Shown: piece after piece, positions 3,842 to 9,567 of the stretch | Layout: each line of letters starts with the position of its first letter | Position numbering within the stretch: the stretch's first letter is position 1 | Translations under genes and position numbers: made by a program | From: an uncultured Bacteroidales bacterium | Lineage (GTDB): Bacteria > Bacteroidota > Bacteroidia > Bacteroidales > UBA932 | Reading direction: 5' to 3' | DNA length: 47,009 bases | Assembly: GCA_900318015.1 (NCBI GenBank) | Contig: ONJB01000011.1 | Span: 1 to 47,009 of the forward strand | Notes under the pieces: generated by a model | The model's input: only the letters and a program-made list of their open reading frames with translations | Databases searched by the model: none | Told to the model about the DNA's origin: nothing

Positions 3842-4273
3842 ATGGAAGCCACGTTAGTACCTATCTTCATCTGCGTCATTCTCCCGATCGCCATTGTCTG
3901 GCTGGTCGTCCGTGCCCGGAAGCACGAAATGGACAAGAAGACGGAAATCATGCTCAAGGCCATCGAAAACGGGGCCCAGATCGACCCCCAGCTCTTCAAG
4001 ACCAAGCAGTCCACCCGCAGCATCAAGCAGGAACTCATGGACAAGTTCACCGGTGCCTGCGTCACCTCCTTCATGGGCATCGCCTTCCTGGCGATCGGCA
4101 TCCTGAACCGGAGCAACCCCGGCATGTTCAAAGGCCTGTGGTTCCTGGAGACCGCTCTCACCGCCGGCGCCATCCTGCTGGCCATCGGATTCGCCCTGTT
4201 CTTCTCCTACCTGGTGAGCAAGCGGACGCTTGCCAAGGAGATCGAAGCCGAAGAGAAGAACCTCGAGAAGTAA
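3842..4273 (+). CDS. DUF6249-like small membrane protein
   Basis: A 143-residue protein with three predicted membrane segments: residues about 5-23 (VPIFICVILPIAIVWLVV), 77-91 and 105-128. A charged cytoplasmic stretch (RARKHEMDKKTEIMLKAIENG) follows the first. The C-terminus is highly charged and probably helical (SKRTLAKEIEAEEKN). The pattern fits DUF6249, a Bacteroidota family commonly encoded beside ECF sigma factors. It lies one base before the sigma gene. A role as a membrane partner or regulator of that sigma factor is inferred from position only. Confidence 0.75.
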   Translation: MEATLVPIFICVILPIAIVWLVVRARKHEMDKKTEIMLKAIENGAQIDPQLFKTKQSTRSIKQELMDKFTGACVTSFMGIAFLAIGILNRSNPGMFKGLWFLETALTAGAILLAIGFALFFSYLVSKRTLAKEIEAEEKNLEK

Positions 4274-4274
4274 A

Positions 4275-4754
4275 ATGACTCAGGAGCGGTTCATCAGCCT
4301 GGTGCGCGCAGAGCAGGAGCCCCTACGACGGTTCCTGCTGGCGCTGTGTTGTGGCGATGCCGCTCTCGCCGATGACATCGCCCAGGATGCGCTCGTACGG
4401 GCATACGTGGCGTCCGGCTCGTTCCTGGGCCTGTCCAAATTCAGCACCTGGCTCTTCAGGATCGCATACAATTGTTATATCGACCATTGCCGGAAGGCCA
4501 AGCCGGAACAGACGTCCGTCGACGATGCCCTGGAGATTCCGGCCGCCGAATCATCCGACTCCGCCTTCCGGTACCAGCAGCTATACCGGGCCATGGACCG
4601 TCTTCCGGAGAAGGAAAAGGCATCCATCTCCCTCTTCTATTTCGAAGACCGGAGCATCAAGGAGATCGCGGCCATCCTGGGGATCCCGCAGGGCACCGTG
4701 AAGTACCACCTTTCGATGGGCCGAACCCATCTGAAACAGCATATACAGTTATGA
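4275..4754 (+). CDS. RNA polymerase ECF (sigma-70 family group 4) sigma factor
   Basis: A 159-residue protein with sigma-2 at about residues 15-75 (DDIAQDALVRAYV, then FSTWLFRIAYNCYIDHCR) and sigma-4 at about 100-155 (RLPEKEKASISLFYFEDRS, then the helix-turn-helix IKEIAAILGIPQGTVKYHLS). It has no sigma-1.1 or sigma-3, so it belongs to the ECF class. The frame is open upstream into the previous gene, but the ATG at 4275 lies directly after that stop and gives a normal N-terminus. It overlaps the next gene by ATGA. No classical zinc-type anti-sigma factor is adjacent, so the flanking membrane proteins are the best candidates for control. Confidence 0.93.
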   Translation: MTQERFISLVRAEQEPLRRFLLALCCGDAALADDIAQDALVRAYVASGSFLGLSKFSTWLFRIAYNCYIDHCRKAKPEQTSVDDALEIPAAESSDSAFRYQQLYRAMDRLPEKEKASISLFYFEDRSIKEIAAILGIPQGTVKYHLSMGRTHLKQHIQL

Positions 4755-5131: not shown

Positions 5132-5887
5132 ATGAATAAGTTACTCCAAGAAATCACCGCGCGAGCCGATGCGAGCCAGGTAGAAGGGCTGTCCCGGTTC
5201 TTCAAGACCGGGCCGGGGCAATATGGCGAGGGCGACAAGTTCCTCGGCATCAAAGTACCCGTGACGCGGGAGGTGGTAAAGGCCTGCTGGCGTGAAACCA
5301 GCCTGCAGGATCTGGAAGCGTGCATTGCCAGCGAGTATCACGAGGTGCGGCTCGCCGCGCTGCTGGCGCTGGTGGAGATCTTTGCGCATGCGAAGAGATT
5401 CCCGGTCAAGCCGGGAATGACGAAAATGACGTCATGCCCGGCCCGACCGGGCATCTCGCAACAAGATTGCGTCGACTTTTACCTCGCCCATACCGATCGG
5501 ATCAACAACTGGGACTTGGTGGACCTGAGCTGCTATCCCCTGCTGGGGGTGTGGTTGCTGGACAAGGACCGGCAGTTGCTGTATGACCTGGCCCGGAGCG
5601 GAAAGACCCTCTGGGAGCAGCGCATCGGCATCGTCAGCACGATGACGTTTATCCGGAACGGGCAGCTGCAGGACACTTTTGACATCGCCGACATCCTGCT
5701 TCATCACCCGCACGATCTCATCCACAAAGCCGTGGGCTGGCTGCTGCGGGAGGCCGGGAAACGCGACAAGGAAGCGCTCGTCCAATACCTGGAGCCCCGC
5801 TGGCAGACCATGCCCCGGACGATGCTCCGTTATGCCATCGAGAAGTTCCCCGAAGCGGAACGCCAACAATACCTGAAGAAAGCATGA
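5132..5887 (+). CDS. DNA alkylation repair protein (AlkD-like HEAT-repeat fold)
   Basis: A 251-residue protein matching the AlkC/AlkD-type DNA alkylation repair family, helical-repeat DNA glycosylases that remove bulky or alkylated bases. Diagnostic segments are GEGDKFLGIKVP, HEVRLAALLALVEIF and DRINNWDLVDLS, the last holding the Trp-Asp pair that the family uses at DNA. Residues 88-109 (KRFPVKPGMT through RPGIS) do not fit the family. They are the translation of a 63-bp inverted palindromic repeat inserted in frame between two helices. The rest of the gene reads normally to a 3' end that overlaps the phosphatase gene as ATGA. Function is probably retained, since the insert falls in a linker. 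Confidence 0.88.
   Translation: MNKLLQEITARADASQVEGLSRFFKTGPGQYGEGDKFLGIKVPVTREVVKACWRETSLQDLEACIASEYHEVRLAALLALVEIFAHAKRFPVKPGMTKMTSCPARPGISQQDCVDFYLAHTDRINNWDLVDLSCYPLLGVWLLDKDRQLLYDLARSGKTLWEQRIGIVSTMTFIRNGQLQDTFDIADILLHHPHDLIHKAVGWLLREAGKRDKEALVQYLEPRWQTMPRTMLRYAIEKFPEAERQQYLKKA
5395..5457 (+). repeat. 63-bp inverted pair of palindromic (REP/BIME-like) repeats inside the AlkD-like gene
   Basis: Two 28-bp units, 5395-5422 and 5430-5457, are reverse complements of each other except at four positions and are separated by 7 nt. Each unit forms a hairpin: ATTCCCGG/CCGGGAAT (5398-5405 with 5411-5418) and ATGCCCGG/CCGGGCAT (5434-5441 with 5447-5454). Two of the four differences are compensatory (T-A in one stem, G-C in the other), and the other two lie in the loop, so the stems are preserved. 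Ends are GAGAT and ATCTC. At 63 bp it adds exactly 21 codons and keeps the frame. Confidence 0.88.
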
Positions 5888-6324
5888 AAGTCCTTTTTGT
5901 CTGTCATGGCAACATCTGCCGCAGTCCGATGGCCGAGTTCATCCTGAAAGCCCTTGTGCGCAGCCGGGGGCAGGAAGGCGCCTGGCATATCGAGTCGGCT
6001 GCGGTCTCCACGGAAGAGATCGGCAATCCCATCTATCCGCCCGCCAAGCGCTGCCTCTCGCAGCACGGCGTGCCTTTCGACAAGGAGAAACGTGCCCGGC
6101 AGGTGACCAGGGCCGATTACGACCGCTTCGACCGCATCATCTGCATGGATGCCTGGAACCTCCGGCTCATCAAGCGGATCATCCCCGACGACCCGGACGG
6201 GAAAATCCATCTCCTGATGTCCTACACGGGGGTCGGCCGGGACGTCGCCGACCCGTGGTACACGGATGATTTCGAAACAGCCTTCCAAGATATCCTGGAA
6301 GGCTGTGAAGCGATGCTGATGTAA
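5884..6324 (+). CDS. Low-molecular-weight protein-tyrosine phosphatase
   Basis: A 146-residue LMW-PTP. The CX5R phosphate loop is CHGNICRS at the N-terminus (Cys7, Arg13), and the general acid is Asp123 in the DPWYTDDF loop. Length and both motifs are canonical, so catalytic activity on phosphotyrosine or small phosphoesters is expected. The start overlaps the AlkD-like stop as ATGA. No tyrosine kinase or exopolysaccharide gene is nearby, which makes a polysaccharide-export role less likely here. It converges with the transporter gene 9 nt downstream, and no terminator is visible between them. Confidence 0.93.
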   Translation: MKVLFVCHGNICRSPMAEFILKALVRSRGQEGAWHIESAAVSTEEIGNPIYPPAKRCLSQHGVPFDKEKRARQVTRADYDRFDRIICMDAWNLRLIKRIIPDDPDGKIHLLMSYTGVGRDVADPWYTDDFETAFQDILEGCEAMLM

Positions 6325-6333
6325 GGGAAAAGG

Positions 6334-8292
6334 CTACTGGAAGCAGTACCCCTCCCCTTCCTTGGTGATCACATTCTCGGCATACGGGCCGATCTTGCGG
6401 CGGAGGCGGTTGATGTAGGTATCGACCACCCGCACATTGGTTGCGGTGTTCTCGGACCAGCACTGCTTGTGCAGGTCTTCGGCCGTGAAGGTGTCGCCCA
6501 CGTTCTCAAGGAACAGTTTCAGCAGGTTGTACTCATGGATGGAGAGGTCCACGGCCTCGCCGTCCACGGTGACTTCCTTGGCGTCCGGGTCGATCTGCAG
6601 CCCACGGAACCGGATGCCGTTGCGGACGGCGCCCAGGCGGGCCTCCACGACGTTGATGATGTAGTCGCCGGTCTTTTCGCATTCGCCGATCAGGTCGGAG
6701 AACACGGTGCCGAGATCGTACCCGTACACCTGGGCGTCCAGGTTCTCGATGTTCTTCTGCTTGAGCCCGTTCCGGCAGGCGTTGATGCGGCGCTCCACAT
6801 CCTCGGAGTCGGCGATGGAGACGTCCTCCCGGCGGCCGGACAGCGATTCGTTCATCCGGGCCAGGGCTTCGTCGACCAGGGCGAACATATCCGCCACACC
6901 GGCTTCCAGCTGCTCGTCGAACACGACCTTGTTCTCGCGCTTGCGACGCAGGATGCGGGCCAGGTTGAAGCAGCTGTCGCCCACGGACTCCAGCTCGCCG
7001 ATCTGGCGGAGCATCGCGCGGATCTTCTGCTTGGTGTCGTCGGACAGATGGGCGGAACCCACGTCGCCGAGATAGCGGCCGATCTCGTTCTCCATCTTGT
7101 CGCTCACTTCCTCGACCTTCTTGATACGCTCGAAGAGCTTGTCGAAGGCCTGCTCGTCCTCGATGCCGTAGAGTTCCTTCACCATGCCGAACATCCGTTC
7201 CATCCGTTCGCCGAAGACCACGATCTCCTTCTGCGCCTGCAGGACGGAGATTTCAGGGGTCTTCATGATACCGCCGCGGATGTACTGCAGGCGGAATTCA
7301 TCCTCTTCCTCGGTCTTCTTGGGCTTGATGAGGAAGCACACGAGCTTCTCAATCTGCGGGATGAACCAGATCAGGATGGCCGTGTTGATGAGGTTGAAGC
7401 AGGTATGGAAGGTCGCCAGCGCGAAGGAAAGCTGGGTGGGATTCTGCTCGGCGGCGTTGGGATCCAGGCCCACGATGCCGCACACCATCCGGATGAACGG
7501 GAAGAAGAAGATGAGAACCCAGATGACACCGAACACGTTGAATACCAGGTGCGCCATGGCGGTTCGCCGGGCCTGCGTATTCGCGCTCATCGCAGCGAGG
7601 TTCGCCGTGACGGTGGTGCCGATGTTCTCACCCATGACCAGCGCGATGCCTTGGTAGATGGAAATTGCCCCGGTCGCGCACAGGACCATCGTGATGGCCA
7701 TGAGCGCGGCGGAACTCTGCACCATCGCGGTCAGGATCGTGCCGATCAGGAGGAACAGCAGGATGGTTCCGTAATTGGTCTTGAAGCTGGAGAAGAAGGC
7801 AACGACAGCAGGCTTGCTGGCGAGGTCCATCTCCACGCCGGTCTGTTTCAGCATGCCCAGCGCGAACAGCAGGAAACTGAGACCGAAGAGGAAATCGCCG
7901 ATATACCGGTGCTTGCCCAGCTGGATCAGGATGATGCCCGCGAGAAAGGCCGGCCACACCACGTCCGCCATGTTGAAGGAGAAGCCGGCGGACATGATCC
8001 ACGCGCTCATCGTCGTACCAATGTTCGCGCCCATGATGATCGAGATGGCCTGGGTGAGGGTGAGCAGGGCTGCATTCACGAAGGACACCGTCATCACGGT
8101 GGTAGCGGCGGATGACTGGACCGCGACGGTCACCAGCGCGCCGGTGGCGACACCGGAGAAGCGGTTGGTGGTCATCGCGCCCAGCAAGTGACGCAGCTGC
8201 GGACCCGCCATTTTCTGGAGGGCTTCGCTCATCACTTTCATGCCGTAGATCAGCAGGGCGATCGAGCCGAGAAGTTTCAGGACGATAAGCAT
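6334..8292 (-). CDS. Na/Pi cotransporter-PhoU protein with a fused PhoB/OmpR-type winged-helix domain
   Basis: A 652-residue protein in three parts. Residues about 1-325 are a Na/Pi cotransporter (PF02690 type) with the two inverted repeats marked by QSSAATT (59-65) and QSSAAL (192-197), each followed by NIGTT (90-94, 223-227). Residues about 345-550 are a helical PhoU-like domain, including IGELESVGDSCFNLARIL. Residues about 560-652 match an OmpR/PhoB C-terminal DNA-binding domain: a strand pair (LQIDPDAKEVTVDGEAVDLS), HEYNLLKLFLEN, the helix VRVVDTYINRLRRKIG and the wing VITKEGEGYCFQ. Family members normally end after the PhoU part. This is a candidate membrane-tethered transcription factor that senses phosphate flux. 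It lies 15 nt after the M28 peptidase gene, probably in the same operon. Confidence 0.9.
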   Translation of the reverse strand: MLIVLKLLGSIALLIYGMKVMSEALQKMAGPQLRHLLGAMTTNRFSGVATGALVTVAVQSSAATTVMTVSFVNAALLTLTQAISIIMGANIGTTMSAWIMSAGFSFNMADVVWPAFLAGIILIQLGKHRYIGDFLFGLSFLLFALGMLKQTGVEMDLASKPAVVAFFSSFKTNYGTILLFLLIGTILTAMVQSSAALMAITMVLCATGAISIYQGIALVMGENIGTTVTANLAAMSANTQARRTAMAHLVFNVFGVIWVLIFFFPFIRMVCGIVGLDPNAAEQNPTQLSFALATFHTCFNLINTAILIWFIPQIEKLVCFLIKPKKTEEEDEFRLQYIRGGIMKTPEISVLQAQKEIVVFGERMERMFGMVKELYGIEDEQAFDKLFERIKKVEEVSDKMENEIGRYLGDVGSAHLSDDTKQKIRAMLRQIGELESVGDSCFNLARILRRKRENKVVFDEQLEAGVADMFALVDEALARMNESLSGRREDVSIADSEDVERRINACRNGLKQKNIENLDAQVYGYDLGTVFSDLIGECEKTGDYIINVVEARLGAVRNGIRFRGLQIDPDAKEVTVDGEAVDLSIHEYNLLKLFLENVGDTFTAEDLHKQCWSENTATNVRVVDTYINRLRRKIGPYAENVITKEGEGYCFQ

Positions 8293-8307: not shown

Positions 8308-9567
8308 TTAATATTGTTCAATGAAATCCACGATCAGCTTGAACACCGGTTCATAGCTGTCGAAGACAGCGTTCCTCCAATTGTCCAGCGGGGTATGGTA
8401 ATACGGGAAGGCAGATCCTTCCTCATCCTCGAGGAAGATGCAGGGAATCCCGCGCTTGGCAAATGGATAATGGTCGCTGTTCGCCGCCAGCGCGCCATGG
8501 TTCAGGGACTTGAAATAGCCCTTCTCCGCATTGATGCGCTCGATCAGTTCAAAGCCCCGCTGGCCCTGGTCGCTGGTCTCGCAGTACAGGACCGGATTGT
8601 TGTCGCCGATCATGTCCACATTGATCAGGTACCGGATCATTTCCAGCGGGAAAACCGGATGCTGCGCGTAATACTCCGATCCGCGGAGGTTCGCATCCTC
8701 GCCGGAGAAGGCGATGAACAGCATGTCGTACTTGGGCCGATGCTCGGCGAAATAGGCGGCCAAGGTGACGAGGGCGGCCGTGCCGGAAGCATTGTCATTG
8801 GCCCCGGCATAGAACACCCGGCGGCCGAGATTGCCCAGGTGATCGTAATGGGCCGTGAACACGTAGCAGCTGTCGTGGCTGGCGCCCTCCACCGAGGCGA
8901 TGACGTTGAAACACTGGTAGCTCTTGTAGAACTTGTTGTCGATGTCCACGGTGACGCTCCGGGAGCCGCGGGGGATCTGCTTCGACAGGACCCAGATGAC
9001 GGGCTTGGGGTTCACTTTCTCGCCGTAGGCCTTGTAGAACTTCAAAGGCTCGTCCCAAGTGAGGATGAGGCCTTTGTTCGGGGCGCCGTCCGCGCTCTGC
9101 AGCTTCTGGAAATCCTCCCGGTGCTTGTAGGTGAACCAGAAATCGCACACGACGAACGCATCCTTGTATTCGGGCTTCTCCAGGTCGCTGAAGATCTTCG
9201 CGGAATCGTAGTGGAGGGTATCGACGTAATAGACCGGATAGGTCCCTTCGACGCCCGGGCAGAACTCCCGGACGGTGAAATCCGTACCGGGCACCATTCT
9301 CCGCCCGTCGACGGAGAGTTTCATATCCCCGGCAAACGTATTGATGTCCAGGGTGAAATGCTGGCGGGTGACCGCATCGACCCCAGCCTTGCGATAGGCT
9401 TTCTCCAGATACTTGCCGGCCTTGTTGGCGCCGTCGCGGGCATAGCCGCGGCCCTGGAACCGCGCGGAACTGAGATCTCTGACGACCTTCTTGTATCCCG
9501 CCAGGTCCTGGGCGCTCCCTTGCACGGCGAAGACCGCCAGCAGGATCAGTATCAAAACTCTTCTCAT
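8308..9567 (-). CDS. Secreted M28-family zinc aminopeptidase
   Basis: A 419-residue protein with a signal peptide (MRRVLILILLAVFAVQGSAQ). The M28 zinc ligands are in place: His240 (TAHYDHLG), Asp258 (GANDNASGT), the SGED pair at 290-291, Asp318 (NVDMIGD) and His391 (YYHTPLDN). The usual SGEE motif reads SGED, a conservative change at a metal ligand. The frame stays open far upstream, but the ATG at 9567 gives the signal peptide and is preceded by a -7 box. It is expected to trim peptides in the periplasm or outside the cell. It is the first gene of a two-gene unit with the Na/Pi-PhoU-wHTH gene and is divergent from the sugar dehydrogenase operon. Confidence 0.9.
   Translation of the reverse strand: MRRVLILILLAVFAVQGSAQDLAGYKKVVRDLSSARFQGRGYARDGANKAGKYLEKAYRKAGVDAVTRQHFTLDINTFAGDMKLSVDGRRMVPGTDFTVREFCPGVEGTYPVYYVDTLHYDSAKIFSDLEKPEYKDAFVVCDFWFTYKHREDFQKLQSADGAPNKGLILTWDEPLKFYKAYGEKVNPKPVIWVLSKQIPRGSRSVTVDIDNKFYKSYQCFNVIASVEGASHDSCYVFTAHYDHLGNLGRRVFYAGANDNASGTAALVTLAAYFAEHRPKYDMLFIAFSGEDANLRGSEYYAQHPVFPLEMIRYLINVDMIGDNNPVLYCETSDQGQRGFELIERINAEKGYFKSLNHGALAANSDHYPFAKRGIPCIFLEDEEGSAFPYYHTPLDNWRNAVFDSYEPVFKLIVDFIEQY

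Follow-up and report, generated by a model that had tools for sequence, protein, structure and literature searches.

The window analysed here is a stretch of 47,009 nucleotides, positions 1 to 47,009 of contig ONJB01000011.1, from an uncultured Bacteroidales bacterium (NCBI GenBank assembly GCA_900318015.1; UBA932). Its minus strand carries a single frame, running from an ATG at 8292 to a stop at 6334-6336, that encodes a 652-residue protein in which a sodium/phosphate (Na/Pi) transporter is joined to a PhoU domain and a C-terminal PhoB-type winged helix (Table 1). This three-part architecture, with both Na/Pi repeats, had been proposed from the sequence without database searches (the sequence-only reading), and was confirmed by Pfam, NCBIfam, motif positions, AlphaFold and Foldseek. 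Pfam matches to Na_Pi_cotrans (PF02690; E=1.1e-53, two stretches), PhoU (PF01895; E=3.8e-7, 30.8 bits against a cut-off of 23.5) and Trans_reg_C (PF00486; E=5e-17, 62.2 bits against a cut-off of 26.2, residues 578-651) were all above the curated cut-offs. QSS motifs were located at residues 59 and 192, GANIGTT at 88 and GENIGTT at 221; QSS did not vary among the 47 fused proteins aligned. The protein scored 218 bits on TIGR00704 (cut-off 210.1), and its solved relatives by sequence were SLC34 phosphate transporters for the front and OmpR/PhoB effector domains for approximately residues 553-652. The top NCBIfam regulator model was NF053854 (PhoB of Bacteroidales; 9.8e-23), matched only over model positions 130-225 of 225, which agrees with the earlier claim that a receiver domain is absent. 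The score of 80.7 bits against a cut-off of 270 reflects the effector domain only, and because the N-terminal receiver is missing the fusion was not classed as a PhoB.

The full chain was modelled with AlphaFold from a 72-row alignment, with a mean predicted local distance difference test score (pLDDT) of 82.7 and a predicted template modelling score (pTM) of 0.54, a modest value from which the relative placement of the domains is not readable. Residues 560-651 were modelled as four strands, three helices and a two-strand wing, the elements of a winged helix, with ten-residue block means of pLDDT of 73-89 from residue 561 onward. Foldseek returned the effector domain of Escherichia coli PhoB, 1gxq, as the top Protein Data Bank (PDB) match (template modelling score on target 0.84, root mean square deviation 2.0), and 1gxp, the DNA complex of that domain, was also among the best PDB matches. 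The predicted structure therefore contains the winged helix expected at the end of the chain.

Table 1. Features of the fused gene and of its surroundings in the window
Feature	Position in window	Strand	Basis
Na/Pi transporter-PhoU-PhoB-type winged helix fusion, 652 aa	6334..8292	(-)	open frame, Pfam, NCBIfam
Transporter domain, residues 1-330, two Na_Pi_cotrans repeats with QSS and NIGTT	7303..8292	(-)	Pfam (two stretches), motif positions, model helices
PhoU domain, residues 345-555	6628..7260	(-)	Pfam best stretch 361-447; model helices 346-553
Junction, residues 556-566; receiver of PhoB missing here	6595..6627	(-)	pLDDT <50 at 556-558; NF053854 match from position 130
PhoB-type effector domain (winged helix), residues 560-652	6337..6615	(-)	Trans_reg_C 578-651, NF053854, Foldseek 1gxq, dN/dS
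Recognition helix, residues 622-640, VVDTYINRLRRK..., diverged from canonical TVDVNITRIRKK	6373..6429	(-)	model helix 622-640, sequences
M28 peptidase gene	8308..9567	(-)	coordinates, Pfam (Peptidase_M28, 1.9e-40)
Sigma-70 family (ECF-like) factor, ordinary neighbour	4230-4754		
DNA alkylation repair enzyme, ordinary neighbour	5132-5887		
Low-molecular-weight phosphotyrosine phosphatase, ordinary neighbour	5884-6324		

The same three-part chain was found in 63 distinct fused proteins from many assemblies, identical proteins and matches below 52% identity being left out. In alignment A1 (72 members), Trans_reg_C was present in 45 members (34 fused rows and 11 added PhoB tails) and PhoU was matched at E <= 0.001 in 60. 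A scan of contigs confirmed at least 586 relatives, and the best 80, which were retained, came mostly from metagenome-assembled genomes of ruminant-gut Bacteroidales. A fused match was present in 18 of 101 genomes drawn from the window's genus, among the matches listed, and the fusion in 10 of 26 genomes of a second genus of the same family. In draws across the order (198 genomes) and the phylum (395 genomes), PhoU and winged helix were spanned by rows of the source genome only, among the matches listed. Two fused proteins, L081 and L086, belong to genomes labelled Prevotellaceae and Bacteroidales KHT7. The fusion is narrowly spread and is not an assembly accident. The source genome (G000; 106 contigs, 92.5% complete) encodes two fusions, the window copy (C19) and a copy on C64, which are 81% identical to each other, as well as one unfused NptA-PhoU on C45.

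Upstream of a large subset of the fused genes lies a 17-bp box, TTAMRATNNNGTTACAA, composed of two TTAnAA half-sites in direct repeat with an 11-bp period. A box was called where 13 or 14 of the 14 specified positions matched at 70-90 bp before the start; it was first seen by eye and then tested as a fixed pattern, so the pattern was fitted on part of the counted sequences. With the canonical recognition helix defined as TVDVNI[TA]RIRKK (PhoB consensus), the 63 distinct fused genes divided into 27 with this helix, 24 of which had the box approximately 80 bp before the start, and 36 with other helices, none of which had it (Fisher value 1.9e-14, which ignores relatedness). The box was also called in 2 of 50 unfused genes (L168 and L169). 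In both, phoB lies directly behind, and this stand-alone PhoB has a nearly canonical helix. Conservation was calculated on promoters that were taken for their canonical helix, whether or not they held the box (26 of the 27 located, 21 non-redundant), and the best-conserved 17-column window was the box itself (1.55 bits per column, with 0.46 upstream of it and 0.87 from box to start); an earlier column conservation, on rows chosen for holding the box, was partly circular. In 16 of the 26 genes with a box, among them L168 and L169, a TAnnTTTG motif follows the box start at 53 bp, and in four it does so at 51-52 bp; the pattern was unmatched in five, and L266 is cut by the contig end. The TAnnTTTG-like motif we take to be the -7 element that, with a -33 region, characterises Bacteroidetes promoters. 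A further half-site was present 22 bp upstream in several copies, and in L169 three stand in unbroken 11-bp register (by eye). Members of the OmpR/PhoB family recognise 7-bp direct repeats with a 4-bp spacer, according to the excerpt of PMC4832192 consulted. A generic search for upstream repeats of 10-12-bp period yielded few more than shuffled sequences did and did not separate fused from unfused genes.

The exact box was then counted genome-wide in 45 genomes; 15 of them held 17 occurrences in total, and the reversed control pattern was found in none. Twelve of the 17 occurrences precede a fused gene, approximately 80 bp from the start (G000:C64, G424, G369, G397, G370, G380, G210, G228, G319, G246, G339 and G442), and two precede an nptA-phoU-phoB-phoR operon (G358 and G400). 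The remaining three lie elsewhere, at G433:C2:192804-192820, G433:C3:119998-120014 and G370:C55:25620-25636, the last being a second site in G370. The G433:C2 box lies between ferritin-like and SusC-like genes (names by eye), and G433 has a stand-alone PhoB. No exact box was found in the 13 genomes without any Trans_reg_C, nor in the 11 fused genomes in which the copy examined carries a different helix (eight, and three with THIRKK). Among canonical-helix genomes, G404 and G446 had no exact box; G446 has a 13-of-14 site. To judge by these sequences, the exact-match targets in fused genomes would nearly always be the fused gene itself.

In three fused proteins of the second genus (L206, L207 and L208) the helix carries an Arg-to-His change (THIRKK), and at the unchanged place in their promoters the second half-site is altered to TTAAGATTTTGTTATTT; protein and site may have changed together in nature. 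By-eye alignment placed the changed residue at R201 of PhoB, which is a base contact; the contacts named in the portion of PMC3264566 consulted are T194, V197, R201 and R219. In canonical fusions T194, V197 and R201 are all retained (by-eye alignment).

In the source genome the only two Trans_reg_C domains found were those of the two fusions, and no PhoR was detected at E <= 1e-40. A genome of 92.5% completeness can hide a gene; fused genomes of 98-99% completeness (G324, G412, G384 and G246) showed the same Trans_reg_C and PhoR picture. Trans_reg_C was surveyed in the window's genus in 18 fused genomes and in the 20 unfused genomes with the closest matches. No further Trans_reg_C was present in 13 of the 18 fused genomes; of the others, G380 and G407 had a PhoB-like regulator, above the cut-off in G380 at 278 bits and below it in G407 at 242 bits, G404 and G397 had an RprY-like one, as judged by similarity to L185 (scanned), and G435 had a winged-helix fragment. 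The domain was absent in 25 of 52 further members of the genus. In the second genus the fusion was the only Trans_reg_C in six fused genomes, and at least four genomes there had no match too. No Trans_reg_C (OmpR/PhoB-type regulator) was detected in G375, G410, G421, G379, G347, G394 and G361, which are 90-97% complete.

PhoR was scored in 30 genomes as a match to NF053855 at E <= 1e-40. Of the 17 fused genomes, two had it (G380 and G407, both also with a PhoB-like regulator); so did all six PhoB-bearing unfused genomes and none of the seven unfused close relatives without any Trans_reg_C. The result depends on the chosen E-value limit, as only one of the 30 genomes exceeded the model's own cut-off. 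PstC was over its cut-off in none of the 30; the weak matches in 18 of them (36 bits or less against a cut-off of 196) were read as absence. NptA-type proteins may be the main phosphate importers in this group. A strict replacement of PhoB by the fusion was considered and judged too strong a description, since fused and unfused forms alternate on the tree and many genomes, 13 of the 20 unfused ones surveyed among them, lack both the tail and PhoB.

A tree of winged helices (100 rows, 107 columns; duplicates L158 and L164 and fragments L179, L180 and L184 dropped) was poorly resolved. The 47 fused domains grouped in it with stand-alone PhoB-type regulators, and the fused label needed two changes, or one when only starred branches were counted. 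By these sequence comparisons the winged helix is closest to Bacteroidales PhoB. In the unfused relatives G400:C183 (L168), G358:C2 (L169) and G405:C18 (L167), nptA-phoU is followed by phoB and then by a histidine kinase gene in the same direction, phoB starting 18 bp past the transporter gene in L168 and L169. On NF053854 (cut-off 270 bits) the phoB products of L169 and L167 scored 334 and 300 bits; the L169 kinase scored 344 bits on the PhoR model NF053855, below the 500-bit cut-off and over the kinase core only. This gene order is the likely starting point of the fusion, and with the three genes in a row the receiver was probably dropped when the fusion formed. In other members of the genus (e.g. 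G415, G364 and G399) the gene of a PhoB-like regulator adjoins a more distant nptA-phoU and is divergent from it. Genes commonly found side by side would thus have merged into one.

Ratios of nonsynonymous to synonymous substitution rates (dN/dS) were calculated for 19 pairs of fused genes, duplicates L158 and L164 being left out. The winged-helix value was 0.17 or below in 15 of the 19 pairs, the remainder being 0.22, 0.50 and two undefined; at the junction it was 0.19 or below in 11 of 13 computable pairs, over 11 codons only. Between the window copy and L007 the values were 0.075 for the winged helix (residues 567-652), 0.024 for the transporter and 0.112 for PhoU. As far as such ratios indicate, the winged helix is under purifying selection.

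These comparisons suggest that the main form of the protein, with the canonical helix, regulates the gene encoding it and bypasses the usual kinase relay, and we consider it likely that a sodium/phosphate transporter here acts as its own transcription factor, in one chain, with no receiver and mostly no detectable PhoR. To a broader proposal we lean only slightly: that a lineage of Bacteroidales from the ruminant gut condensed the entire Pho chain (transport, PhoU flux sensing and PhoB output) into one self-switching polypeptide without kinase or phosphorylation, that PhoR and PhoB were mostly lost, and that duplicates like the window gene drifted to new DNA specificities. In the proposed mechanism the transporter domain would move phosphate and the PhoU domain would report on transport, a report that the C-terminal effector domain would carry to DNA within the same chain. 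At high flux PhoU would hold the linked effector domain off; low flux would free it, and two or more chains could then bind the tandem box and recruit RNA polymerase. Activation is suggested by the position of the box upstream of the -33 region. A membrane-tethered regulator of this kind would act mainly on its own gene, a target to which tethering would be suited. In S. aureus, expression of nptA was raised at intermediate phosphate when NptA lacked its PhoU domain, as stated in the part of PMC13170248 consulted. For the fusion we infer phosphate-passage sensing, DNA binding and gene control from sequence. The sequence-only reading had also proposed action without phosphorylation. That proposal has indirect support: in the source genome Trans_reg_C was found in the two fusions only and no PhoR was detected, and in fusions with the canonical helix the box precedes the gene. 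The window copy has no box and differs at base-contacting positions.

Several observations weigh against self-regulation by the fusion. No box was found within the window at up to two mismatches. Two canonical-helix genes, L025 and L265 (= G404:C8), are without a box, and that of L012 is degraded (11/14). No exact box was found in four of seven PhoB-bearing unfused genomes (G405, G372, G291 and G382), neither exact box of G433 precedes its nptA, and L167 has no box, though its operon holds the stand-alone PhoB nearest in the tree. The link between helix and box comprises one independent pair when starred branches are counted and four when all branches are, too few for significance. On a core tree, made by a quick method with the tail left out (101 rows; duplicates L158 and L164 dropped; fused defined as 640 aa or longer), 54 rows were unfused and 47 fused, and the label needed 14 changes, at least 10 of them forced by starred branches. 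No Trans_reg_C was present in 13 of the 20 unfused genomes surveyed and the tail is often absent, which shows that these bacteria can live without it.

The core tree alone cannot tell gain from loss. Most of its fused/unfused changes are probably losses, since the winged helix looks like one or two acquisitions. The 1500 bases past the stop of unfused genes were searched with tblastn and no convincing decayed winged helix was found; the strong matches there were the intact phoB genes of L167, L168 and L169. L049, where a match extended past the stop, was considered as a carrier of a remnant and rejected, as another gene lies there. The tail of unfused L055, EARIRRKLSPTAEAF, looks by eye like the last part of a recognition helix, which would fit an in-frame deletion of most of the winged helix. 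At L184:2873-3220 (G435:C1) a C64-type winged-helix-like fragment, YELLKLFLENRGKVFSREELLSAV, lies within an unrelated short frame and is likely the remnant of a lost fusion copy.

The alternation on the core tree would also fit a tail that is a relic or structural add-on, the box belonging to another regulator, and so would the 36 of 63 fused proteins, window copy included, in which the helix differs from the PhoB consensus and the box is missing. We regard this explanation as improbable, because dN/dS over the winged helix is low in most pairs, the box accompanies 24 of 27 canonical fused genes and two operons whose stand-alone PhoB has nearly the same helix, and no other Trans_reg_C was found in the source genome. 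It is also unlikely, if a little less so, that the chain is a precursor from which the winged helix is freed by proteolysis as a soluble regulator. The low-confidence stretch adjoining the winged helix would offer a place for cleavage, and the small number of exact boxes per genome fits a tethered and a released mode alike; against this, no direct sign of cleavage was seen (cleavage motifs were not searched for), and the junction itself has low dN/dS in most computable pairs, albeit over few codons. An assembly or frameshift artefact joining two genes is extremely improbable: the genome is a draft in many contigs, but distinct fused proteins come from many assemblies and purifying selection acts on both sides of the junction.

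A further reading, compatible with self-regulation by the transporter and one that we hold plausible at somewhat less than an even chance, confines regulation through the box to canonical-helix fusions. The window copy would then be a transporter with a tail that binds elsewhere or not at all, and it may exert an effect on the C64 protein, mixed oligomers being one example. Beyond the missing box, the M28 peptidase gene has its stop approximately 15 bp before the fusion start codon, so that there is hardly any room between the two genes for the fusion to have its own promoter, and L007, 95% identical to the window copy, has the same peptidase junction. The recognition helix reads VVDTYINRLRRK in place of TVDVNITRIRKK, and among the four base-contact positions R201 alone is kept, as R629 (by-eye alignment). 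The constrained winged helix and the C64 paralogue in the same genome, which has both canonical helix and box, fit this reading as well. On the other side, R629 and R631 in the recognition helix and W612, G648 and Y649 in the fold are kept. The window copy is best read, on the sequence comparisons, as a diverged paralogue whose winged helix is still constrained, and with its contact residues diverged and no box it probably has another target or acts via the C64 copy; the case for self-regulation accordingly rests on canonical copies such as C64. On the core tree the window copy and L007 cluster with six unfused proteins (support 88, not starred).

The fusion was compared with four known systems. 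With NptA carrying a C-terminal PhoU domain (S. aureus type; TIGR00704 / NF037997) it shares Na_Pi_cotrans repeats followed by PhoU. PhoPR-dependent expression of nptA in S. aureus is influenced by the PhoU domain of NptA (PMC13170248). There the signal goes to a separate two-component system, whereas the fusion has the PhoB effector domain on the same chain. The likeness to PhoB of Bacteroidales (NF053854) lies in the effector domain, the direct-repeat box of canonical copies, though not of the window copy, and the tree grouping; unlike PhoB, the effector domain here comes with no receiver, and hence no phosphorylation site, and is joined to a membrane transporter with many spans. CadC and ToxR are not transporters; each crosses the membrane once and carries its DNA-binding domain at the N-terminus. 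In common with the fusion they are one-chain regulators with a membrane-tethered winged helix (excerpts of PMC5430869 and PMC7888679), but the DNA-binding domain of the fusion is C-terminal, behind a polytopic transporter and PhoU. With a winged helix on a membrane protein and no receiver (Pfam, AlphaFold), the fusion works like a membrane-integrated one-component regulator, yet it is not a ToxR/CadC member, as its layout departs from the N-terminal domain and single transmembrane helix that define that class. Transport, PhoU, PhoB-type output and a direct-repeat box are shared with the Pst-PhoU-PhoR-PhoB system, from which the fusion differs in that PstC was over cut-off in none of 30 genomes, PhoR was undetected in 15 of 17 fused genomes and the parts stand on one chain.

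No report of a transporter-PhoU-PhoB effector chain was found in the titles and abstract openings that searches of open-licence PubMed Central (PMC) papers listed. The gene-tree set of PMC13170248 left out PhoU-domain proteins with other domains such as Na_Pi_cotrans, according to the part consulted. Linkage of transporter, PhoU and PhoB effector domain without a receiver, and mostly with no detectable PhoR, suggests that phosphorylation is not needed to read the PhoU-side signal. How PhoU signals transport to the Pho output side is a long-standing question, and the fusion allows it to be tested with a single protein and a defined site of 17 bp. If the proposal is true, an ion-coupled transporter would be the transcription factor for its own gene.

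The canonical fusion on C64 is followed immediately by a convergent MgtC-family gene (Pfam MgtC, 7.3e-36) at L117:6989-7618 (G000:C64).

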